DNA from: Flavobacteriales bacterium
GTDB lineage: Bacteria; Bacteroidota; Bacteroidia; Flavobacteriales_D; Sanyastnellaceae
Assembly: GCA_029242765.1 (NCBI GenBank)
Contig: JAQWTJ010000056.1
Coordinates: 1 to 32,826, forward strand
Direction: 5' to 3'
Length of the DNA: 32,826 bases
Position numbers and translations under genes: made by a program. Of this stretch, positions 1 to 32,826 are shown piece after piece. The notes beneath the pieces were generated by a model that worked only from the letters and a program-made list of their open reading frames with translations, was not told where the DNA came from and did not search any database. Every line of letters starts with the position of its first letter. Positions within the stretch are counted from its first letter, which is position 1.

Positions 1-2577
1 CTTGGTGTATTGCACGCCGTTTCATTGATGTTGCATTGTGGTCAAATCGAAGCGCAATTCGTCGATGCTTCGCTTGAGTACCCCATGCTGAGCAGCACCC
101 AGGCCGAGTTTCTGGGCGGCGGAATGAGCTTTACCGATTTCAATTCCGATGGCTTGGACGACTTAACTTTTTCAGACTATCAAGGTGAGTTGAAGTTCTA
201 TCAGCAGGGTGAGGATGGTTTGGAACTTGTCGATTTGGGAATCGAATTTGAAGGTGAGCCTAAAGGGGTGTTGTGGTTTGATTATGATAATGATGGCGAC
301 CAGGACCTAATGTTGGCGGTGAACAACGCTCCGAACAAACTCTGGTGCAATGACGATGGAACCTTTAATGACTGCAGCTTGTTTGCGGGCATTGAGGCGG
401 CGACGGATTGGATGACATTTGGTTTGAGTGCGGGGGATTATGACCTGGACGGCTTTTTGGACGTGTATATGTGCAATTACCACGAAGGTGCGGGAAGCAT
501 GCAGCCAAACATCTTGTACCATAACAACGGGGACGGGACATTCACCGATGTCACTGCGATTGCAGGTGTGGGCAACGGTTTGGCCCACACATTTCAAAGC
601 GTCTGGTTCGAATATGATTTTGACGGCTACCCCGACTTGTTTGTGATCAACGACCGGGATGTGTATGCCAATGCCCTTTACCACAATCAAGGAGACGGCA
701 CATTTATCAATATCGCCCCAGCCGTTGGTGCCGACCAATCAATTTCGGCGATGAGTGCCACCATAGGCGACGCAGACAATGACGGTGATTTCGACATATT
801 CTGCAGCGACGTAATTGACAGTCCAAACCTGCTTCTTGAGAAAAACGAAGCGGGCTATGCTGACTTGTCAGTATGGAGTGGAGTGGCTGGTGAGCAGTAC
901 AGTTGGGGCGGAGCGTGGATCGACTACGACGGTGATATGTGGCTAGACTTGCTGGTGGCCACCTACCGTTTCCCGTTGACTATTGCGTACGACAACTACA
1001 TGTATCATCATGTGGGCGAGTCCTTGTCTTTTAGCAATGTGTCGGAAGACTGGCCCAACGGGGAGCGTGAGCTTTACTGCTTGGGCCGTGGTGATATCAA
1101 CCAAGACTTGGCTCCAGATATAGTCGCACACGGCAACAGCTCGACTGCACAAGTCTTGGTGAACACTGCATCGCCGGCAGGTGGGGCAGGCCGTCTCACC
1201 ATCCGCTTGCATGGAACAATCTCAAATCCAGATGCCATAGGTGCTATTATCCGTGTGTACACCGGAGATGTAGTGCAAATGCGTCAAGTCCGATGCGGTG
1301 AAGACTATCTAACACAGCACGCACAAACTCAGTTCTTTGGCCTTGGAGACAATGCCTACGCCGACTCAGTGACTGTGGATTGGCCGTCTGGAATTCAAGA
1401 CGTGTGGACAGGTGTTGTTGCGAATGAAGCCTATTTTTTTGTGGAGCGATCGACGCACGCTCAAATCTTGGTTCAAGGTTCGTCGTGCTTTGGCGAAGAG
1501 GCGGAGGCGCAGTTCGACATGGAGCCTGATGAGGTGTATTGGAACGGTGAGCTCTCGCCTCAAGGAGGTCTGGAATTGGATACTTCTGGCGTTTATGCCT
1601 TGGAAGCGCATTGGCTGAACGGTTTGTTTGTGGTGCATGACACCTTGATTTGGGAACACGAATTGCCGTTGGAGTTGACCGTGGGGTGGTCTCCACCGGC
1701 GTGCTATGGCGAGCCGGGCGTGCTGGTGTGGCAAGCAAGTGGGCTGCACTCCGTGCTATGGGGTAATCAGATCTTGCCACCTCAAGGAGAGTCGGACACG
1801 ACATTGGCCGGTTCGCTTCTCTTGGGATTGGTTTCCGATATCAGCGGCTGCAGTGCCACGTTTGAATTTGACCTCAGTAGCCCTTCTGCAGTCGAGCTTT
1901 CTATGGATTGCCATCCAGCGTTGTGTGCAAATGACACGGCGTGGTGTGTGGCCTCAGGCGGTGGCGGCACGCCGGAATATGTGTTGGACTGGGGTGCTGC
2001 AGATCCCACCCATTTGCTTAGCGGTGTCTGGCCTGTTCAGCTGACTGACGCGCACGGCTGTGAAGCTTTTGATACGCTCAATGTGTTGATCCCTGAGCCG
2101 CTCGTATTGACGCTTCAGGCCATCCACGAAGACGAACAGGACGGCGAAGTCTCAGTTGACATACAGGGCGGCACATCGCCTTTTGAAATTTTGTGGAATA
2201 ACGGAGAAACGGGCCAGGTGATTGACTCGTTAACCGCTGGCATTTACAGTTGTGTTGTTGAAGATGCTGGGGGCTGCCTAGCGGTGGCCGCCATTCAGAT
2301 TGTCAATGTAGGACTGGTTGATTTTGATGTCAATCATAACGACTGCTCTTCATGGGGTGTGCACCGGAGTGCAGGCCGTATTTCGATGTTTGCTCCCTTG
2401 AATTGTTCGGCTGCGAGCATTCAAGTTTTTGCCCTGGACGGGCGGTTGATGAGCTCGGCTGCATGCCTTGGCAATGATTGTTCAATCGCCGTGCAGGACG
2501 GGGCGCCTGTTATTGTGGCCTTGTTCGATGCGGAAGGCCGATGCCAGTACCGTTCTTGGTTGCCTCCAACGCCTTAA
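1..2577 (+). CDS. Secreted FG-GAP/VCBS and ASPIC/UnbV protein with SprB-like repeats, 5' partial
   Basis: The reading frame is open to the window edge, so the true start probably lies upstream; the first 20 or so codons look like the end of a signal peptide (…GQIEAQ then FVDAS). About seven Asp-rich calcium-loop motifs of FG-GAP/VCBS type follow (for example DFNSDGLDD near residue 47, DYDNDGDQD near 95, DADNDGDFD near 258), then an ASPIC/UnbV domain around residues 405-470 (GAIIRVY…, TVDWPSGIQD). Two SprB-like repeats lie near 655-697 and 720-767 (GGTSPFEILWNNGETG, LTAGIYSCVVEDAGGC). The last 65 residues resemble a T9SS type A sorting domain (IQVFALDGRLM, then a hydrophobic strand) but lack the usual PNP motif and are rich in Cys. 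It is likely a surface or secreted protein with a beta-propeller; its ligand is unknown. It shares architecture with the protein at 11781-14642. Confidence 0.85.
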   Translation, partial: LGVLHAVSLMLHCGQIEAQFVDASLEYPMLSSTQAEFLGGGMSFTDFNSDGLDDLTFSDYQGELKFYQQGEDGLELVDLGIEFEGEPKGVLWFDYDNDGDQDLMLAVNNAPNKLWCNDDGTFNDCSLFAGIEAATDWMTFGLSAGDYDLDGFLDVYMCNYHEGAGSMQPNILYHNNGDGTFTDVTAIAGVGNGLAHTFQSVWFEYDFDGYPDLFVINDRDVYANALYHNQGDGTFINIAPAVGADQSISAMSATIGDADNDGDFDIFCSDVIDSPNLLLEKNEAGYADLSVWSGVAGEQYSWGGAWIDYDGDMWLDLLVATYRFPLTIAYDNYMYHHVGESLSFSNVSEDWPNGERELYCLGRGDINQDLAPDIVAHGNSSTAQVLVNTASPAGGAGRLTIRLHGTISNPDAIGAIIRVYTGDVVQMRQVRCGEDYLTQHAQTQFFGLGDNAYADSVTVDWPSGIQDVWTGVVANEAYFFVERSTHAQILVQGSSCFGEEAEAQFDMEPDEVYWNGELSPQGGLELDTSGVYALEAHWLNGLFVVHDTLIWEHELPLELTVGWSPPACYGEPGVLVWQASGLHSVLWGNQILPPQGESDTTLAGSLLLGLVSDISGCSATFEFDLSSPSAVELSMDCHPALCANDTAWCVASGGGGTPEYVLDWGAADPTHLLSGVWPVQLTDAHGCEAFDTLNVLIPEPLVLTLQAIHEDEQDGEVSVDIQGGTSPFEILWNNGETGQVIDSLTAGIYSCVVEDAGGCLAVAAIQIVNVGLVDFDVNHNDCSSWGVHRSAGRISMFAPLNCSAASIQVFALDGRLMSSAACLGNDCSIAVQDGAPVIVALFDAEGRCQYRSWLPPTP

Positions 2578-11780: not shown

Positions 11781-14642
11781 TTAGCGAATCACCACGTGGG
11801 CTGTGGCCACGCGATGGCCCTGCACAAGTCTCAATACGTAAGCGCCAGGCGCCAAACCGCTTAAATCCAGGCGGGTCATCTCTGCCGCTGATGCGTAGTT
11901 CTTAGACCACACCGAACGGCCGTCATTTGAGAGGACTTCCGCTTGAAGCTTTCCGGCTGTGGCAGGCAAGCGCAATGTGAATTCACCCTGTGAGGGGTTC
12001 GGGTACACTTCAAGTCCTGCAATGCCCTCGAGGTGATCGACACTGACAATCACGCTCACAACCACTTCCACGGCATCGCTTAAACATTCGACCGCCTGTG
12101 TTTCGACCGTGATATCGTAAAAGAAGTAGTAGTAGGATAGCGTGGTTTGTGGGTTGCCTACGGAGGTGCCAGTCACGCTTGCGAGCGTGCCGATTTCGTA
12201 GGGGTAATTCAGCTCGCTTTCCAGCCCGTCGCGCCAAAGATTTGGCGTGGTGGTCACACGAAGACCGTAGTCTGTACCAGCTTCGACCTCTAGGTTCAAC
12301 TCAACAATGGACTCGCCGTCGGGGATCATCACGGTGACTTCGTCCAACACGGCACCGCCAGGAGCCTGCACTATAACGGTGCGCTCCCCTGCACCATCAG
12401 CAATAACCTTAGCTGAGCGGATTACGATGTCTTGGTAAGCGTCAAACGTCAGGTAGTAGTAAGTGCTCTCCTGGAATTGACCTTCAGTGGAAGGGTCGCT
12501 CGCTCCGCCCACGGCCGTCTCCAACCCGTGGTTCAATATAGAAGCGGCCCAATAGCTCTGATCCTCGTTTAATACTGGTGTCGTGAAGGGGTTGCCTTCA
12601 TAGAGCAAATCGCTTGTAGCCGCATCGGAAAACCACTGCAGGTTCTCCATTCCACCGTCCAAAGTGGCTGTCTCTCCTGCGTTGACGCTCACGCCTTCAA
12701 CCGTTGGGGCTGCTGGAGTTTCGAAAACTTCAACCTCCACGCTTGCAGAGGTGAGCGGCTCGGTGCAGTCACCATCAATGCTTACGAAGTACGTCCCTGC
12801 TTCGGTTACTAAGATGCTCTGGTTCAGGTCATCGTTCGACCAGTTGTAGGAAGGGGCGCTGCTGGAAATGAGTGTCACGCTCTGGCCTTCGCACAGCTTC
12901 AAATTACCGTCGACGGTGATGGTGGGCAGCTCAGGGGTGTAAACAATTACAGAGATCGGAGCACTCTGCCCCAAGCAGCCTTCAGCGGTTTCCATAATGA
13001 CGTAGTAGTTGCCCGTTGAGCTCACTTCGGTGCTCGATCCGGTTGAACCGTTGCTCCAGCTGTAGCTGGTCAAGCCTTCCGGTGCGGTTAGCGTGAGCGA
13101 TTCGCCCGGGCATAGCGTTGTGGCTCCAGAGGCCGCTATGGCGGGAGCATCGAATTGGCATGGCCCTTCAATCAAGTTGTGGTAGACATTGATGGCTGGG
13201 TTGGTCAGCTCAGTGGTCAGGCCACTGGGCCAAATGACCAATGCACTGTCTATAGCAGTCGCAGCTCCAAGGCCGAAATGTGGGTGAGATGAACAGGTGA
13301 TTCCGTAGCTCTCTCCTGCTCGCACCTCGCGGACTTGGTCGCCCCAAGGGCCGTAGACATGAACGATGGCTCCCACTGCAGAAGCGTTGGAAACTGTTCC
13401 GAGTAGATCGAAAGCGACCCAGTTGTTCTCGTTGCCGTCATTTATATAGAGCTTGTCAGGGTTTTCACTATCTGAAGAGACGTAGACGCTCCCGTGCCCA
13501 GCATAGACATCGATTTGCCCATTTCTATCGTAGTCACCAATGCTGAAGGTGTTCATCCGATCGGGGTAGCTAAAAGGCCAATCCAATTCGGTGAATGTTC
13601 CGTCACCGTGGCCGTGGAAGTAGTGGTTTGAACCGTCACCGCCCGAGGTGAGGATGTCCAAGAAGCTGTCGTTATCAAAGTCCTCCATTTTGCCCTGCAG
13701 GAAGAAACCGCTGACATCTATGCCGCTGCTGTCTGTGATATTGGTAAAAACGCCATCGCCATCATTCTCAAGAATCATCAGTGAAGTGCTGTGATTGGTT
13801 ACGAAGCAATCCATATCGCCGTCGTTGTCAACGTCACCGAAGTCAGCTGTCCAGCTTTGCTCGTAGAAGACCAATCCTCGCTCAGCGGCTTCTTCAGTCC
13901 AGCCGCCCTGACCGTCGTTAATCCACAATTGGTTGACGCGGCGGGGGTCGTTTTCATCGCTGACGAATTGACGGCATTTTGCCAAGTAGAAGTCCGTATC
14001 ACCGTCGCCGTCGACATCAGACCAAACCGTTCCATAGTTGCCGGAGTGGTCGGTGTCTGGATAGTCTTCGTGGTCATAAGACGTGAGGGGCATCAAGGCG
14101 GGGTCGTACAGTAGTGCACCTGCGCCATCGTTTCCAAAAAGAAGCGACAAGCCGTCGTCGTGGCAAGCAAAGATGTCAAGCCAGCCGTCCATGTTGATGT
14201 CCGCCATGTTGGTGGCTTGCATGAAAAAGGTTTCGCTGTCTAATTCGATGAATTCTGCACCAGTTTCTGGGTCCATGTTCGTGATTAGGACGAGGTGGGC
14301 GCCGTCGTAGTTGCCGCCAGAAAAGATGTCCTTTTTCCCGTCGTTATCGACGTCACCGATGCATGCGCCCCATTGGTTGGAGTTGCTCAACGGTCCGTAA
14401 TGGACTTCTTCAAGGCCGCCGTCCATTTGGTACAAGACGTAAACGTCCTCTGCGCTGTCGAATACAACGATGTCATCGCGTCCGTCACCGTCCATGTCGG
14501 TGAAACCAACGGTGCCTCCTGAATGAAGTTCGCTGGGCAAAAGCCCTTCTGAAAGCGTGAAGCTTTGCGCTTGGAGAGTGAACGAGAAGACTGTGAAAAA
14601 TGCAGCTGTGAGAGCCGCAAAAGGGAGTTGTTTTTTAATCAT
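11781..14642 (-). CDS. Secreted FG-GAP/VCBS and ASPIC/UnbV protein with T9SS sorting domain
   Basis: A 953-aa protein. ATG 14642 opens a clean signal peptide (MIKKQLPFAALTAAFF…LQAQ, cleaved near 25-26); the upstream in-frame start at 14675 would spoil it. Seven calcium-loop motifs of FG-GAP/VCBS type (DMDGDGRDD, DVDNDGKKD, DINMDGWLD, DVDGDGDTD, DVDNDGDMD, DFDNDSFLD, DYDRNGQID) suggest a beta-propeller over residues 40-400. ASPIC/UnbV follows near 405-475 (GAIVHVYGPWGDQVREVRAG). Two Ig/PKD-like repeats (CPGESLTLTAPEG… and CEGQSVTLISSSAP…) lie near 505-640, and a jelly-roll-like region near 715-850. The C-terminus (LEVYPNPSQGEFTLRL…GAYVLRLVQG) is a T9SS type A domain. It probably forms one transcript with the cytochrome gene downstream. 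Confidence 0.9.
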   Translation of the reverse strand: MIKKQLPFAALTAAFFTVFSFTLQAQSFTLSEGLLPSELHSGGTVGFTDMDGDGRDDIVVFDSAEDVYVLYQMDGGLEEVHYGPLSNSNQWGACIGDVDNDGKKDIFSGGNYDGAHLVLITNMDPETGAEFIELDSETFFMQATNMADINMDGWLDIFACHDDGLSLLFGNDGAGALLYDPALMPLTSYDHEDYPDTDHSGNYGTVWSDVDGDGDTDFYLAKCRQFVSDENDPRRVNQLWINDGQGGWTEEAAERGLVFYEQSWTADFGDVDNDGDMDCFVTNHSTSLMILENDGDGVFTNITDSSGIDVSGFFLQGKMEDFDNDSFLDILTSGGDGSNHYFHGHGDGTFTELDWPFSYPDRMNTFSIGDYDRNGQIDVYAGHGSVYVSSDSENPDKLYINDGNENNWVAFDLLGTVSNASAVGAIVHVYGPWGDQVREVRAGESYGITCSSHPHFGLGAATAIDSALVIWPSGLTTELTNPAINVYHNLIEGPCQFDAPAIAASGATTLCPGESLTLTAPEGLTSYSWSNGSTGSSTEVSSTGNYYVIMETAEGCLGQSAPISVIVYTPELPTITVDGNLKLCEGQSVTLISSSAPSYNWSNDDLNQSILVTEAGTYFVSIDGDCTEPLTSASVEVEVFETPAAPTVEGVSVNAGETATLDGGMENLQWFSDAATSDLLYEGNPFTTPVLNEDQSYWAASILNHGLETAVGGASDPSTEGQFQESTYYYLTFDAYQDIVIRSAKVIADGAGERTVIVQAPGGAVLDEVTVMIPDGESIVELNLEVEAGTDYGLRVTTTPNLWRDGLESELNYPYEIGTLASVTGTSVGNPQTTLSYYYFFYDITVETQAVECLSDAVEVVVSVIVSVDHLEGIAGLEVYPNPSQGEFTLRLPATAGKLQAEVLSNDGRSVWSKNYASAAEMTRLDLSGLAPGAYVLRLVQGHRVATAHVVIR

Positions 14643-14740
14643 CACTTGCAGGTGGATTGCTAAACTACGACTCACTTTTAATAATTACCCCGTTGATTTC
14701 AATTCCTTGTTTCAGCAATACAGGTTGTGGGGCTGCGGTG

Positions 14741-14752: not shown

Positions 14753-16102
14753 ATGTCAAATGTGGGCCGCGTTGCATACGAAACCTTAGGCTGTAAGCTG
14801 AACTTCAGTGAGACCTCGATGTTGGCTTCGACGCTGACAGAAGCTGGTTTTGCGCGGGTCACGGTTTCTGAAGGAGCTGATGTGGTGGTGGTCAATACAT
14901 GCAGTGTGACCGACCATGCTGATTCAAAATGCCGCAACATTGTGCGCCGCGCCCTGGCTGCCAATCCCGAGGCATACGTCGCGGTGATTGGATGTTATGC
15001 CCAATTAAAACCCAAAGAGATTGCCGCCATTGAGGGGGTGGACTTGGTGTTGGGGGCGGCAGAAAAGTTTGACTTGCCAGGCTTGCTTGCTGAGCGCTTG
15101 GGAGCAACGGCTGATGGTTCGGATGTGGACTTGGGCTCGGGGGACGGTGGAGCAGAAATTCGGAGAAGTGAAATCAAGGCCGTAACGGAATTCTTCCCCG
15201 CTGTATCGCTAGGGGACCGGACGCGGAGCTTCCTCAAAGTGCAGGACGGCTGCAACTATTTCTGTGCGTTTTGCACGATCCCTTTAGCGCGCGGGCGGTC
15301 GCGCAGCGGGTCAATCAACCAGACGGTAGCACAGGCGGAGGTGGCGGCGAAATCCGGGGCAAGGGAAATCGTGCTGACGGGCGTGAACATTGGAGATTTT
15401 GGGGCTGGAGGTGACGAAGACCTTCTTGGCTTGGTTCGCGCATTGGACCATGCTGAGGTGTTGGCGAGCGTGAAGCGGATGCGTATTTCGTCCATTGAGC
15501 CCAATTTGTTGGCTGAGGACCTCATTGAGGCGGTGGCCTTGTCAAAAAAGTTTCAGCCGCATTTTCACGTGCCGCTGCAAAGCGGATCGGATGCCGTGCT
15601 GAGCGCGATGCGAAGGCGCTACCGCACGGATTTGTACCGGCAGCGCATCGAAGCGATTCGCAGTGCGATGCCCACGGCGGGAATCGGAGTGGATGTGATT
15701 GTGGGGTTTCCAGGAGAGACGGAGGCTCAGTTCATGGAGACGGTCGACTTTTTGACGGATTTGCCCGTGAGTTATCTGCACGTGTTCACTTACAGCGAGC
15801 GCGCAAAGACGACGGCGCTGCGGATTGACCAGGTGGTGCCTGTGCCTGAACGGCGAAGAAGAAATGCCGTGCTTCGCCAATTGTCCCTGAAGAAACAAAG
15901 AGCACACGCTGAGTATTTTGTCGGGCTGGAGCGGTCCGTCCTTTTTGAGGCTGCTGTCCGAGACGGCCTCCGCGAGGGCTACACTCCGGAGTACGTTAGG
16001 GTGGGAATGGATGCCGAGTTGTGTGAGGCAGGTGAAGTATTGAACGTCAAGCTGGGGCCGCTGAAATGCGGCTTGCTTTCCGCCGAACGAATTCGCTCTT
16101 AA
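14753..16102 (+). CDS. mtaB: tRNA t6A37 methylthiotransferase
   Basis: A radical-SAM enzyme that converts t6A to ms2t6A at position 37 of ANN-decoding tRNAs. The 449-aa protein has the full family layout. The N-terminal UPF0004 domain carries three cluster cysteines (Cys14 in TLGCKLN, Cys50 in VNTCSVT, Cys81 in IGCYAQ). The radical-SAM triad CNYFCAFC is at residues 167-174, followed by TGVNIGDFG, RISSIEPN and HVPLQSGSD, with a short TRAM-like C-terminus. The LGCKLN and QDGCNYFCAFC patterns fit MtaB better than MiaB or RimO. The ATG is preceded at 4 bases by a perfect TAnnTTTG box. The lgt gene follows after 48 bases. Confidence 0.95.
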   Translation: MSNVGRVAYETLGCKLNFSETSMLASTLTEAGFARVTVSEGADVVVVNTCSVTDHADSKCRNIVRRALAANPEAYVAVIGCYAQLKPKEIAAIEGVDLVLGAAEKFDLPGLLAERLGATADGSDVDLGSGDGGAEIRRSEIKAVTEFFPAVSLGDRTRSFLKVQDGCNYFCAFCTIPLARGRSRSGSINQTVAQAEVAAKSGAREIVLTGVNIGDFGAGGDEDLLGLVRALDHAEVLASVKRMRISSIEPNLLAEDLIEAVALSKKFQPHFHVPLQSGSDAVLSAMRRRYRTDLYRQRIEAIRSAMPTAGIGVDVIVGFPGETEAQFMETVDFLTDLPVSYLHVFTYSERAKTTALRIDQVVPVPERRRRNAVLRQLSLKKQRAHAEYFVGLERSVLFEAAVRDGLREGYTPEYVRVGMDAELCEAGEVLNVKLGPLKCGLLSAERIRS

Positions 16103-24338: not shown

Positions 24339-25163
24339 ATGGCAAAGATTATTGCAGTAGCAAACCAAAAAGGCGGCGTAGGAAAGACGACTACGGCCAT
24401 CAACCTCGGCGCGAGTTTGGGCGCATTGGAATTTAAAACTCTACTCGTGGATGCAGATCCCCAGGCGAACTCCACCTCGGGTGTGGGCGTGGATCCTAGA
24501 ACGGTTGAATCGGGCACGTACCAATGCCTGCTCGGCACGGGCGACGCGGCATCGGCTATCGTGGAGACGACCAACCCCAACCTGTGGCTCCTGCCCTCTC
24601 ATATCGATTTGGTGGGCGCTGAAATTGAGCTGGTTGATGTCGAGGAGAGGGAGTTTCGACTGCGCGCTGCGCTCGAGCCGCTGCTCGAAGAGTACGACTT
24701 CATTCTGATTGATTGCTCGCCTTCTTTGGGGTTGATTACACTGAATGCGATGGCCGCTGCCAATACCGTAGTTATTCCCGTCCAATGCGAGTATTTCGCA
24801 TTGGAGGGTTTGGGCAAGCTGCTCAACACCGTCAAGATTGTTCAGACGAAACTGAACCCCGAATTGATGATTGAAGGCATCTTGCTCACGATGTACGACA
24901 CCCGATTGCGTCTGTCGAATCAAGTGGTGGATGAGGTGCGCATGCATTTCGGTGAAATGGTGTTCGATACGCTGATTCATCGCAACACGCGTTTGGGAGA
25001 GGCGCCAAGCCACGGCGAGACGATTGTGATGCACGATGCTTCGTGCAAGGGTGCGATTAATTACTTGAATCTTGCGCGTGAAATTCTTCAGAAGAACGAC
25101 CTGACGAAGATGCGCAACGCTGATAAATACATGGGGTTGGACGCCATTCCTGAGGACGTTTGA
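24339..25163 (+). CDS. parA: Chromosome-partitioning ATPase ParA/Soj
   Basis: A 274-aa Walker-type ATPase that forms nucleoid-bound dimers and moves ParB-parS complexes during chromosome segregation. The deviant Walker A motif [15 protein letters not shown] begins near residue 11, with Walker A' ([12 protein letters not shown]) and Walker B ([19 protein letters not shown]) following. The C-terminal region ([21 protein letters not shown]) is typical of chromosomal Soj proteins. It is paired with parB 34 bases downstream. The parA-parB-DUF5683-dapB-lepB order is, to my knowledge, recurrent in Bacteroidota and marks this as the chromosomal rather than a plasmid system. Confidence 0.97.
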
Positions 25164-25197
25164 TTGTCAGGGGCTTGGATTTTCGACGACGTAGGTT

Positions 25198-26202
25198 ATG
25201 ACGAAAAAATCGAACAAGAAACCAGCGCTCGGCCGCGGCCTTGGGGCTTTGCTTGACGACGTCGGGGTGATTCGGGACTTAGCTGGGCCGAAATCCCAGA
25301 CGAACACAGAGGCAGGTGTTGCGCAGCGGCCCAGCGCTGCAATCGACCGAGTCTCTCGTGCACCGAAGGTGGGCGAAGTGGCGCACTTGGGGATCGGTGA
25401 TATCGTTGCAAACCCAGACCAACCGCGCAGAAATTTCGATTCGGAGGCCTTGGATGAATTGGCTGAATCCATTGAGACGCTGGGGATCATTCAACCCCTT
25501 ACGGTGCGCAGGGTGAGCGTGAATCGTTATCAGCTGATTTCAGGTGAACGCCGATTTCGTGCAGCTCAAATTGCGGGCCTTGAACGGGTGCCAGCTTACA
25601 TCCGTGAGGCGGACGACCAGACGATGCTTGAGATGGCGCTCGTTGAAAATATCCAGCGCGAAGATTTGAATGCGGTTGAAGTGGCCATCACCTACCGGCG
25701 TTTGATGCAGGAGTGCGGTCTGACCCACGAGCAAATGGCGGTGCGTTTAGGAAAAGGTCGAGCGAGTATCAGCAATCACGTTCGGCTGTTGAATTTGCCG
25801 GCCAATATGCAGAACGCCATCATTGAGGGGGGGTTGAGCTTCGGTCACGCGCGCATTTTGTCGGGCTTGGCAGGAGATGAAGATCGAACTGAACTGTTTT
25901 TGCTTATTGGGAAGCAGGGCATGAGTGTGCGGGCATCTGAGCAGTGGGTGCGAGATCACCGGGACGCGACCGCAGTCCAGATGGAGGACGATGCCCCCTT
26001 GCTCATCCCCGATGAAAAGGAATCTCACTTGCCGGGTCTTTCGGAAGCGAGCCGTAAAGTCCTTTTGGAATTTAGACAGCGCTTCAGCCCAAAGGTGGTG
26101 ATTCGTAAGAAGAAGGGGGATTCGGGCTTGATTGAGATCCCGTTTGGTTCTCAGCAGGAGTTGGAATCTTTTTTCGAGGCATTGAACAAGCGCCAATATT
26201 GA
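25198..26202 (+). CDS. parB: Chromosome-partitioning protein ParB/Spo0J
   Basis: A 334-aa CTP-dependent clamp that loads at parS sites and spreads along DNA. The N-terminal CTP-binding domain shows NPDQPRRNFD, LAESIETLGIIQPLTVRR and the box II motif GERRFRAAQ. The helix-turn-helix domain includes MAVRLGKGRASISNHVRLLNLP, and a dimerisation region with basic residues (RQRFSPKVVIRKKKGDSGLIEIPF) closes the protein. The N-terminal end carries a basic, Gly-Leu-rich peptide (KPALGRGLGALLDD), the conserved ParA-contacting segment of ParB proteins. No full parS site was found by eye in this window. Confidence 0.97.
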   Translation: MTKKSNKKPALGRGLGALLDDVGVIRDLAGPKSQTNTEAGVAQRPSAAIDRVSRAPKVGEVAHLGIGDIVANPDQPRRNFDSEALDELAESIETLGIIQPLTVRRVSVNRYQLISGERRFRAAQIAGLERVPAYIREADDQTMLEMALVENIQREDLNAVEVAITYRRLMQECGLTHEQMAVRLGKGRASISNHVRLLNLPANMQNAIIEGGLSFGHARILSGLAGDEDRTELFLLIGKQGMSVRASEQWVRDHRDATAVQMEDDAPLLIPDEKESHLPGLSEASRKVLLEFRQRFSPKVVIRKKKGDSGLIEIPFGSQQELESFFEALNKRQY

Positions 26203-29624: not shown

Positions 29625-29924
29625 TCAGGCTGACTCTCTTTTCTCGACGTCCAAAATGATGTCCACCACCACGATGCGATTCAGTTCAATCAGGTAGTAA
29701 ATCCGATGATTGTGCGTGAGTACGCTCCAGAATTCGCCCTCGATTGCATCAAATTTTGCCTTGCGTGCTTCGCTGGGCTTAGGGCGTTCGCCAAGTTTGC
29801 CGATGCGCGCAAGTATTTCGTCTTTGGCTTTTTCTGCGCCGATCAATGATTGACCTTGCAGCGCGACAATAATCCGTTCGAACGCCTTGACCGCACGGTC
29901 TGAAATGATGACCTCTTTTTTCAC
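29625..29924 (-). CDS. Solitary RelE/ParE-superfamily toxin-like protein
   Basis: A 99-aa protein with the small alpha-beta fold of the RelE/ParE superfamily: an N-terminal strand (KKEVIISDRAVKAFERII), two helices (SLIGAEKAKDEILARIGKLG), a linker with conserved Pro and Arg/Lys (ERPKPSEARKAK), and the final strands (FWSVLTHNHRIYYLIELNRI, VVVDIILDVEK). RelE toxins cut mRNA on the ribosome and ParE toxins act on gyrase; no residue here decides between them. The start is a GTG. No antitoxin gene can fit on either side: 23 bases separate it from wbqC and 37 from gcvT. It might be a harmless remnant, act with an antitoxin elsewhere, or have another function. Confidence 0.72.
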   Translation of the reverse strand: MKKEVIISDRAVKAFERIIVALQGQSLIGAEKAKDEILARIGKLGERPKPSEARKAKFDAIEGEFWSVLTHNHRIYYLIELNRIVVVDIILDVEKRESA

Positions 29925-31084: not shown

Positions 31085-31849
31085 ATGTCTGATGAAATGA
31101 ATACCAAGCGCAGGCGCGTTGAAGTTTGCTACACACCGGGGCAGTTCGAGTTGTATAAAGGCGACTTCGACATTTGCGTGGTTATCGATGTGCTCAGAGC
31201 GACTTCAGCTATTTGCACGGGACTTGCTGCGGGTGTCAAGTCCATTGTGCCCGTTGAAACCGTTGAAGAGGCGCGCTCATTGATGAGCCAAGGGCTGGTG
31301 GGGGCCGCTGAGCGAAATGGTGAAATTGTTGAGGGCTTTCCCATGGGCAACTCGCCGCGTGCGTATTGGAACCCCGAACTCGTGGGGAAATCAGTGGTGC
31401 TTTCCACGACCAATGGAACGCGCGCCATCGCATTGGCATCGAAAAGCTCGCAGGTGGTGATTGGAAGCTTGAATAATTTGGATGCCTTGTGTGAATGGCT
31501 GAGTAATCAACCCGGCCACGTGCTTTTGCTCGCCTCGGGATGGAAGGACAAGTTCAATCTTGAGGACACCATTTGTGCGGGAGCCATCGCCGAGTATTTG
31601 ATTGACAAGCAGCAGTTTTATTGCGACGAGGACGCCACCATCGCAGCTAAGTTTCTTTATCGTTCGGCCCGGGAGAACATCTTTTCATTTCTAAAGGCCT
31701 CTTCGCACCGGCGGCGCCTGCGCAAGTTGAACCTCAATGAGGACATCAAGTACTGCCTCACGCCCAACACGGTTGAGTCGGTGCCCGTGTTGCAAAACGG
31801 TGCCTTGGTCGACGTGATGAAAACGGCTGAAAAAAAAATGGATGTCTAG
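31085..31849 (+). CDS. comB: 2-phosphosulfolactate phosphatase family protein
   Basis: In methanogens ComB is an acid phosphatase that makes sulfolactate for coenzyme M. The 254-aa protein shows the family pattern: VVIDVLRATSAICTGLAAGV near residue 32, LVGAAERNGEIVEGFPMGNS, VVLSTTNGTRAI near 103, then LLLASGWKDKFNLEDTICAG near 147. Bacteroidota do not make coenzyme M by any known route, so a sulfolactate or other phosphatase role is likely but unproven. It follows gcvT by 10 bases, and its end (a run of nine A, then ATGGATGTCTAG) overlaps the next gene by 8 bases. Confidence 0.9.
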   Translation: MSDEMNTKRRRVEVCYTPGQFELYKGDFDICVVIDVLRATSAICTGLAAGVKSIVPVETVEEARSLMSQGLVGAAERNGEIVEGFPMGNSPRAYWNPELVGKSVVLSTTNGTRAIALASKSSQVVIGSLNNLDALCEWLSNQPGHVLLLASGWKDKFNLEDTICAGAIAEYLIDKQQFYCDEDATIAAKFLYRSARENIFSFLKASSHRRRLRKLNLNEDIKYCLTPNTVESVPVLQNGALVDVMKTAEKKMDV

Positions 31850-32726
31850 CAGATCCAGCGTGAAGGCGCTGGCGTTGGGGTTGCCAATTGCGGCCTTGCT
31901 TTGGGGGGCTTGGGGATTTTCAGTGCACCGCAACATCAACCGGTCGGCCGTGTATGCTTTGCCTTCACCATTCAAGGAATACGTGTTGCCGCATGTAGAT
32001 TGGCTCAGTGAGCACGCCGTAGATGCGGACAAGCGGAAATATGCGGTGGTGGACGAGGCGCCTAAACACTACATCGATTTGGACGCCTTGCCCCTGCCCT
32101 GGGACAGCGTGCCGCATCGCTATGATCGGGCTGTGGAGTTGTTTTCGCGTGATACGGTATGGGAGTACGGGGTGTTGCCATGGCAGATTCGCTGGACGTA
32201 CAACGGGCTGGTTGAGGCCTTGAAAGAAGGCGATTTGGAGCGCACCTTGAAAAGTATGGCGGACTTGGGCCATTATGTGGGCGACGCGCATGTGCCGCTT
32301 CACACCACCGTTAATTACAACGGGCAGCTCACAGACCAGAAGGGGATCCATGGCCTTTGGGAAACGCGTTTGCCCGAGCTGTTCATGGACGGTTACGACT
32401 TGGTCGTTGAGCCCGCGGCGTATGTCCAGGACGTGAACGCCTTCACCTGGGAGGCCATCTATGCAAGCCACAATGGCGTGTCCATTGTACTGAATGAAGA
32501 AAGGGCAACTTCTGAGTTGATGGGCCCCAACACCTATGTCCAGGAAGAACGCGGTCGATCCATCCAAAAACTCCGCTCACGCCCTTTTTGCGAGCGCTAT
32601 CACGCAAGGCTTGACGGCATGGTTGAAGAGCGTTGGCGCACGTCTATTTCGGCTGTTTCTCGCTTGTGGTTTTCGGCGTGGGTCGATGCGGGCCAACCGG
32701 AAATCCAACCGGACGCGGTAGATTGA
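31842..32726 (+). CDS. Zinc-dependent S1/P1 nuclease / phospholipase C-like protein
   Basis: A 294-aa exported protein of the trinuclear-zinc superfamily that includes S1/P1 nucleases and zinc phospholipase C. A hydrophobic segment (LALGLPIAALLWGA, residues 10-23) is followed directly by WGFSVH: Trp24 and His29 have the same spacing as Trp1 and His6 of P1 nuclease, where the mature N-terminal Trp binds zinc, so cleavage after Ala23 is likely. HYIDLD (His76) and HYVGDAHVPLH (His144, Asp148, His154) supply further ligands, and HGLWE (His170, Glu174) completes the set with Glu as in phospholipase C. The substrate (nucleic acid or phospholipid) is undecided. The ATG lies 8 bases inside comB. Confidence 0.87.
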   Translation: MSSRSSVKALALGLPIAALLWGAWGFSVHRNINRSAVYALPSPFKEYVLPHVDWLSEHAVDADKRKYAVVDEAPKHYIDLDALPLPWDSVPHRYDRAVELFSRDTVWEYGVLPWQIRWTYNGLVEALKEGDLERTLKSMADLGHYVGDAHVPLHTTVNYNGQLTDQKGIHGLWETRLPELFMDGYDLVVEPAAYVQDVNAFTWEAIYASHNGVSIVLNEERATSELMGPNTYVQEERGRSIQKLRSRPFCERYHARLDGMVEERWRTSISAVSRLWFSAWVDAGQPEIQPDAVD

Positions 32727-32729
32727 GTC

Positions 32730-32826
32730 GTGCGACTGTGCATTGTCAACCCATACCATTCAGGGAGTCACGCCCATTGGGCTGAGGGGCTGCAGCGTCA
32801 TTTGGGCAGTATGCCCGGTGTCGAGC
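32730..32826 (+). CDS. Probable tRNA-queuosine glycosyltransferase (DUF3524/QTMAN-like), 3' partial
   Basis: Only the first 32 codons are in the window, from a GTG 3 bases after the upstream stop. The start reads MRLCIVNPYHSGSHAHWAEG, followed by LQRHLGSMPGVE. This closely resembles the N-terminus of the DUF3524/QTMAN family (I-x-E-P-Y/F-x-G-G-S-H-x-x-W…), whose animal member GTDC1 adds mannose to queuosine in tRNA-Asp. The G-S-H and W positions and the basic W-A-E-G-L helix match. Bacterial members are known by sequence but their activity is not settled. The call rests on a short N-terminal stretch only. Confidence 0.65.
   Translation, partial: MRLCIVNPYHSGSHAHWAEGLQRHLGSMPGVE

Follow-up and report, generated by a model that had tools for sequence, protein, structure and literature searches.

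A QTMAN-family (PF12038) glycosyltransferase gene at a contig end of a Flavobacteriales genome and its possible action on queuosine

The stretch of DNA analysed here (the window; 32,826 nucleotides) is an entire contig, C74, of the source genome, a 2.22 Mb assembly in 110 contigs that is 97% complete, and the contig end falls inside a gene. A reading of the sequence alone had likened this edge gene to QTMAN, the enzyme that mannosylates queuosine (Q) in animals, and had suggested that this bacterium may decorate Q with a sugar. The locus raises the question whether the edge gene is a genuine member of this family and, if so, whether its product would glycosylate Q in a bacterium. According to the accessible portion of one source, mannose is added to Q by QTMAN and galactose by QTGAL, as found in tRNAs of many animals (PMC12518689), and a 2024 review, in the part of it that is available, assigns galQ and manQ to vertebrate tRNAs (PMC12710937). 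The sequence-only reading had called sugar decoration of Q poorly described in bacteria, and this description agrees with the open-access literature, in which we found (titles and starts of abstracts) no report of bacterial mannosyl-Q or of a bacterial role of DUF3524/GTDC1/QTMAN, with reports elsewhere being possible. E. coli glycoRNA has been detected by lectin in a study whose accessible part mentions neither manQ nor QTMAN (PMC12873605).

From its GTG codon, the edge frame reads V/MRLCIVNPYHSGSHAHWAEGLQRHLGSMPGVE up to the window end. Because the in-frame TGA of the upstream gene lies at 32724-32726, the GTG at 32730 is the earliest possible start. The 32 residues encoded in the window matched, on their own, positions 2-24 of the Pfam QTMAN_N profile (PF12038, which we take to be the former DUF3524) with E 0.0011 and 19.3 bits. 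This match, below the cut-off of 25 bits, is real but not decisive on the window alone; the matter was settled by the continuation of the gene on a second contig. Specifically, a PF12038 search of the source genome gave a single match, located right where contig C62 begins and spanning profile positions 28-168, and this part of the protein reached E 2.2e-42 and 145.2 bits. The end of C74 and the start of C62 share five identical bases, and the reading frame continues through the overlap. Because a 5-base overlap is weak evidence by itself, we checked synteny in seven other genomes of this genus, which together provide eight loci. In all eight loci, the QTMAN gene is one unbroken frame that is matched by both pieces and adjoins a gene that is presumably dnaA; an S1/P1-nuclease-like gene lies on the other side in seven of them, and the full order gcvT-comB-S1/P1-QTMAN-dnaA is found on a single contig in five. 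This arrangement rules out a contig chimera as well as an early closure of the frame. We conclude that the joined QTMAN-family gene is genuine and complete (Table 1). The resemblance to QTMAN noted at the window edge is thus confirmed; the signature on which it had been based, P-Y-x-G-G-S-H, pointed to the right family, although its wording was slightly off, since the sequence reads P-Y-H-S-G-S-H.

Table 1 Features of the window and of other loci referred to in the text
Feature	Location	Strand	Evidence or remark
Large FG-GAP/ASPIC-UnbV protein	window 1-2577
Large FG-GAP/ASPIC-UnbV protein	window 11781-14675		ends in a Por secretion-system sorting tail
mtaB	window 14753-16102		TIGR01579, 388 bits (cut-off 357)
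ParA- and ParB-like genes	window 24339-26202
ParE-type toxin gene	window 29625-29924	-	PF05016, 30.8 bits; between window genes
comB, 2-phosphosulfolactate phosphatase	window 31085..31849	+	PF04029, E 7e-70; synteny
S1/P1-nuclease-like gene	window 31842..32726	+	weak Pfam match to PF02265, E 0.0031, below its cut-off; synteny
QTMAN-family (PF12038) glycosyltransferase gene, 5' end	window 32730..32826	+	GTG start, 32 codons + 1 base
QTMAN-family gene, remainder	contig C62 (locus L002), bases 2-1078		joined protein of 389 aa
Loci of Tgt-minus Salinibacter genomes	L048-L051, L220, L221, L223
TGT-domain protein, DndB-family gene, and similar-looking second gene of G421	L233, 591-4093, contig C90		weak tgt match

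Among the neighbouring genes, comB is a member of the conserved gene order that supports the contig join and lies outside the function of QTMAN. The stop codon of the S1/P1-like gene ends 3 bases before the GTG of the QTMAN gene; based on this spacing and on the homologue upstream in seven of the eight genus loci, the two genes may be co-transcribed. Similarly, C74 carries ParA- and ParB-like genes and its end adjoins the contig with dnaA, so that the QTMAN gene may be part of the origin region. The mtaB gene, to which the sequence-only reading had drawn attention as a second tRNA modification gene in the window, is indeed present and scores above its family cut-off; we take it not to be a queuosine gene.

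To place the protein among glycosyltransferases, we combined profile matches, an alignment, and a structural model. The domains anticipated beyond the window are present, QTMAN_N far above its cut-off and Glycos_transf_1 weakly (E 9e-6, 25.8 bits, just under the cut-off of 26.4). The joined protein was aligned with 50 bacterial relatives picked from 80 loci that had been kept by a scan using two peptide patterns; it retains all 41 invariant residues and 38 of the 50 near-invariant ones, part of the invariance among the relatives stemming from the two patterns used to find them. All 50 relatives matched QTMAN_N and 47 matched Glycos_transf_1 (E 0.001 or better). GT4 enzymes carry a (D/E)-x7-E motif, typically E-x7-E, and the joined protein contains a D-x7-E motif (D-F-F-G-L-S-V-V-E). 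A sequence search of the PDB found no QTMAN structure, and in place of the source protein we used the predicted structure (pLDDT 93.0, pTM 0.91) of a relative from the same genus, L140, which shares 47% identity with residues 2-346 of the C62-encoded part of the source protein. The model matched GT-B glycosyltransferases over its whole length, including sucrose-phosphate synthase (Z 30.1, rmsd 2.7, 329 residues), MshA (Z 28.5), BshA, and the GDP-mannose enzymes PimB' (Z 23.9) and PimA (Z 23.6). These GT4-like enzymes have the (D/E)-x7-E motif in common with the source protein; they differ from it in that identity to the model is 10-22% across the best 50 rows and in that they act on small-molecule, lipid, or polysaccharide acceptors, and we know of no QTMAN_N domain in any of them. 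Read from L140, the model supports a full-length glycosyltransferase with a predicted GT-B fold.

The best NCBIfam match of the protein is to an exopolysaccharide glycosyltransferase, which is what would be seen if it were an ordinary GT4 enzyme of polysaccharide or lipid synthesis with a chance resemblance to QTMAN at its N-terminus. We consider this highly improbable, because the NCBIfam match reaches 32.8 bits against a cut-off of 550 whereas QTMAN_N reaches 145 against 25, and because no polysaccharide locus is apparent around the gene, the neighbours of which are comB, the S1/P1-like gene, and two frames that we take to encode a thioesterase and DnaA.

The gene is also not confined to this genome. 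In an even draw of 392 genomes of the phylum, each at least 90% complete, PF12038 was present in 106; it was also present in 51 of the 114 genomes of the family and in 13 of the 17 of the genus (the four genus misses being 64-83% complete), and in none of 14 control genomes, E. coli among them. In a scan with one genome per species, at least 585 of at least 590 candidate stretches were confirmed as family members. The 80 loci kept from the scan include Flavobacteriales, Saprospiraceae, Balneolaceae, Desulfuromonadales, Opitutales, KSB1, Marinimicrobia, Anaerolineae, and Halobacteriovorax, and among named carriers are Salinibacter ruber DSM 13855, Geomonas silvestris Red330, and Lewinella cohaerens DSM 23179. 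Relatives were found neither in phages or plasmids at 1e-5 nor, by the two patterns, in viral contigs, and among the best 25 clusters by size the conserved neighbours of the gene looked lineage-specific. It looks like an ordinary chromosomal gene, and we conclude that the edge gene is a genuine bacterial member of a known, widespread family. In six loci spanning at least two phyla (L171, L191, L193, L194, L200, and L213), a gene that from its reading frame is presumably that of a tyrosyl-tRNA synthetase lies within ~1.1 kb of the QTMAN gene, with a presumptive smpB-like gene in between in five of the six.

What would such an enzyme do in a bacterium? As we read it, the protein is a retaining GT4-type glycosyltransferase of the QTMAN family with a predicted GT-B fold, and it presumably works in the cytoplasm. 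If it is organised like other GT-B enzymes, the acceptor would bind to the N-terminal half (QTMAN_N) and the sugar nucleotide to the C-terminal half. The likeliest reaction is transfer of a sugar, mannose by analogy with the animal enzyme, to the cyclopentenediol of Q at tRNA position 34; one or several of the tRNAs that carry Q would be the substrate, tRNA-Asp being the most probable. That the bacterial QTMAN-family enzyme glycosylates Q is, by this analogy, the best interpretation and in our judgement a fairly probable one. The link to animal QTMAN rests on the PF12038 model of Pfam and on its name: both proteins have the same N-terminal Pfam family, matched here at profile positions 2-24 and 28-168, and a GT4 C-terminal domain, whereas the protein described here is bacterial, its substrate and sugar are putative, and the comparison runs through the Pfam profile instead of the animal sequence. 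A further point of comparison is GluQ-RS (YadB), an aminoacyl-tRNA-synthetase paralogue that adds glutamate, acts on tRNA-Asp at position 34, and belongs to a protein family different from QTMAN. It modifies Q in bacterial tRNA, according to the available part of the review (PMC12710937).

The proposed sugar is a separate matter. Two subfamilies were apparent among 168 distinct family proteins (split support 0.92); 48 of the 168 carry N-Q-R-W or L-L-H-A-P motifs, and 45 of these 48 fall on one side of the split. Moreover, two PF12038 matches that differ clearly in score occur in each of 15 genomes of family f24, suggesting that the two subfamilies may coexist in these genomes. The chemistry of the two subfamilies may differ, and the solved folds nearest to the L140 model use varied donors, including UDP-glucose, UDP-GlcNAc, and GDP-mannose as given in the entry titles; both points are consistent with Q being glycosylated with a sugar other than mannose (e.g. 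glucose or galactose) or at the other hydroxyl. Set against this, alpha-mannosylation is the only function attached to the family in the Pfam description and in the accessible portion of PMC12518689, and we regard a different sugar or position as possible but doubtful. Mannose remains the sugar of the reading that we prefer.

Action on Q presupposes that Q is present, and the sequence-only reading had named tgt, queA, and queG as the genes to look for. Two of the three are present in the source genome, queA on contig C92 (372 bits; a second QueA-like gene is on C3) and queG on contig C33 (331 bits), while tgt had no match in the source assembly at E 0.001. The same tgt search produced matches in all 14 control genomes (in ten of them above the family cut-off), in 97 of the 114 genomes of the family, and in 15 of the 17 of the genus. 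Of the 50 family genomes that are near-complete, 49 had a match, and the source genome was the sole miss. In three genus genomes and in one other genome of the same family (G045), tgt lies between DUF554-like and lptF/G-like frames, followed by ispE and era, all four neighbours being named from their reading frames. A joined query of the four tgt-neighbour proteins of one genus genome had no true counterpart in the source genome; only four matches were obtained, with 25-32% identity, three of them to the era part of the query and one to the lptF/G part, as would be expected of paralogues. Both ispE and era are held to be essential. Because the whole tgt block, including these two genes, is missing too, we attribute the lack of tgt to a gap in the assembly; a biological absence from the source organism was rejected on the same ground. 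The source organism, with queA, queG, and a tgt placed in the gap, very probably makes queuosine. Of the elements of the proposal, we infer all four of the following: Q-bearing tRNA as acceptor, mannose as sugar, the choice of tRNA, and tgt in the gap. Neither outcome that would have spoken against the sequence-only reading was observed: the frame stays open to the end of the joined protein with a glycosyltransferase fold in the relative, and queuosine genes are present.

We also considered that the bacterial acceptor could be something other than Q, i.e. a different nucleoside, a small metabolite, or a precursor of the cell wall, with the animal enzyme having acquired Q later. Across 80 named loci, a search reaching ~6 kb from the QTMAN gene, or as far as shorter contigs allowed, found none of tgt, queA, and queG; it had no positive control, and the second queA reference frame, one of five references, was not truly queA. 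As far as it goes, this result favours a non-Q acceptor, while the queA and queG genes of the host genome argue against one. In the phylum sample, tgt was present in 100 of the 106 genomes with PF12038 and in 285 of the 286 without, and because tgt is near-universal the co-occurrence is uninformative. The seven Tgt-minus genomes of this sample include six with PF12038; four are of one genus, and two others, G000 and G353, may be assembly gaps.

The genus Salinibacter provides a natural test. No tRNA-type tgt was found in eight of its ten genomes (G147, G195, G199, G335, G420, G421, G423, and G424), which are 93-99% complete, two of them only 93-94%; G147 is S. ruber DSM 13855, with a second contig identical to the plasmid of this strain over the 6,000 bases compared. 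The four of these eight that were tested have no queG and keep queA, which is under strong purifying selection (dN/dS 0.014-0.161 in three Tgt-minus pairs). PF12038 was kept in seven of the eight, G195 with its broken frame included. With frames taken stop to stop, so that some bases before the start were counted, the dN/dS of the QTMAN gene was 0.053-0.130 where both genomes of a pair have tgt (five pairs), 0.112-0.197 in mixed pairs (five), and 0.088-0.282 in Tgt-minus pairs (ten), and flanking frames shifted in broadly the same manner. In the one pairing of similar depth (G147/G423 versus G323/G422), pN/pS rose by a factor of 1.7 for QTMAN and of 1.7-1.8 for four flanking frames, which were chosen by hand and are unconfirmed as genes. 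Each of the seven Tgt-minus Salinibacter copies had 2-5 altered invariant residues; the count was 24 for the divergent g195 pair and 0-4 for the others, among which we grouped, as probable gaps, six genomes of the order that had no tgt match (G397, G405, G409, G412, G417, and G440). Contrary to expectation, the QTMAN gene does not clearly decay after loss of tgt in Salinibacter.

Retention of the gene in genomes without tgt (and, in the four tested, without queG), together with its dN/dS in the Tgt-minus pairs, is in line with a non-Q acceptor. Other features of the same genomes point the other way: one Tgt-minus genome (G195) has a broken frame and another has no match at all; the Tgt-minus copies are altered at signature positions (H16R in five, D210N in one, and D210A in two), with total counts that overlap those of other genomes; and the strong selection on queA suggests that Salinibacter may still produce a Q-like base through some route that escaped our search. 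The Salinibacter data count against a strict dependence on Q, unless Q is made there by such a route. Weighing both sides, we judge a non-Q acceptor to be unlikely and continue to favour Q glycosylation; the suggestion that this bacterium may glycosylate Q draws support from the family assignment, queA, and queG, and lacks in Salinibacter the Q dependence that it predicted. In G421, the protein with the weak tgt match has a TGT domain, and next to its gene lie a DndB-family gene and another of similar appearance; from its gene content this locus looks like what we take to be a Dpd-type 7-deazaguanine DNA-modification system.

Sugar-modified Q is treated as an animal feature in the accessible portions of the literature (PMC12518689, PMC12710937), although the enzyme family is widespread in bacteria. 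We tentatively speculate that many bacterial phyla decorate Q with sugars by means of QTMAN-family enzymes, that lineages with both subfamilies would make two sugar-Q nucleosides, and that the Salinibacter enzyme would act on a target other than Tgt-made Q. If true, animals would not be alone in glycosylating Q. The named carrier strains make bacterial Q glycosylation directly testable, and the Salinibacter genomes with and without tgt provide a natural control.
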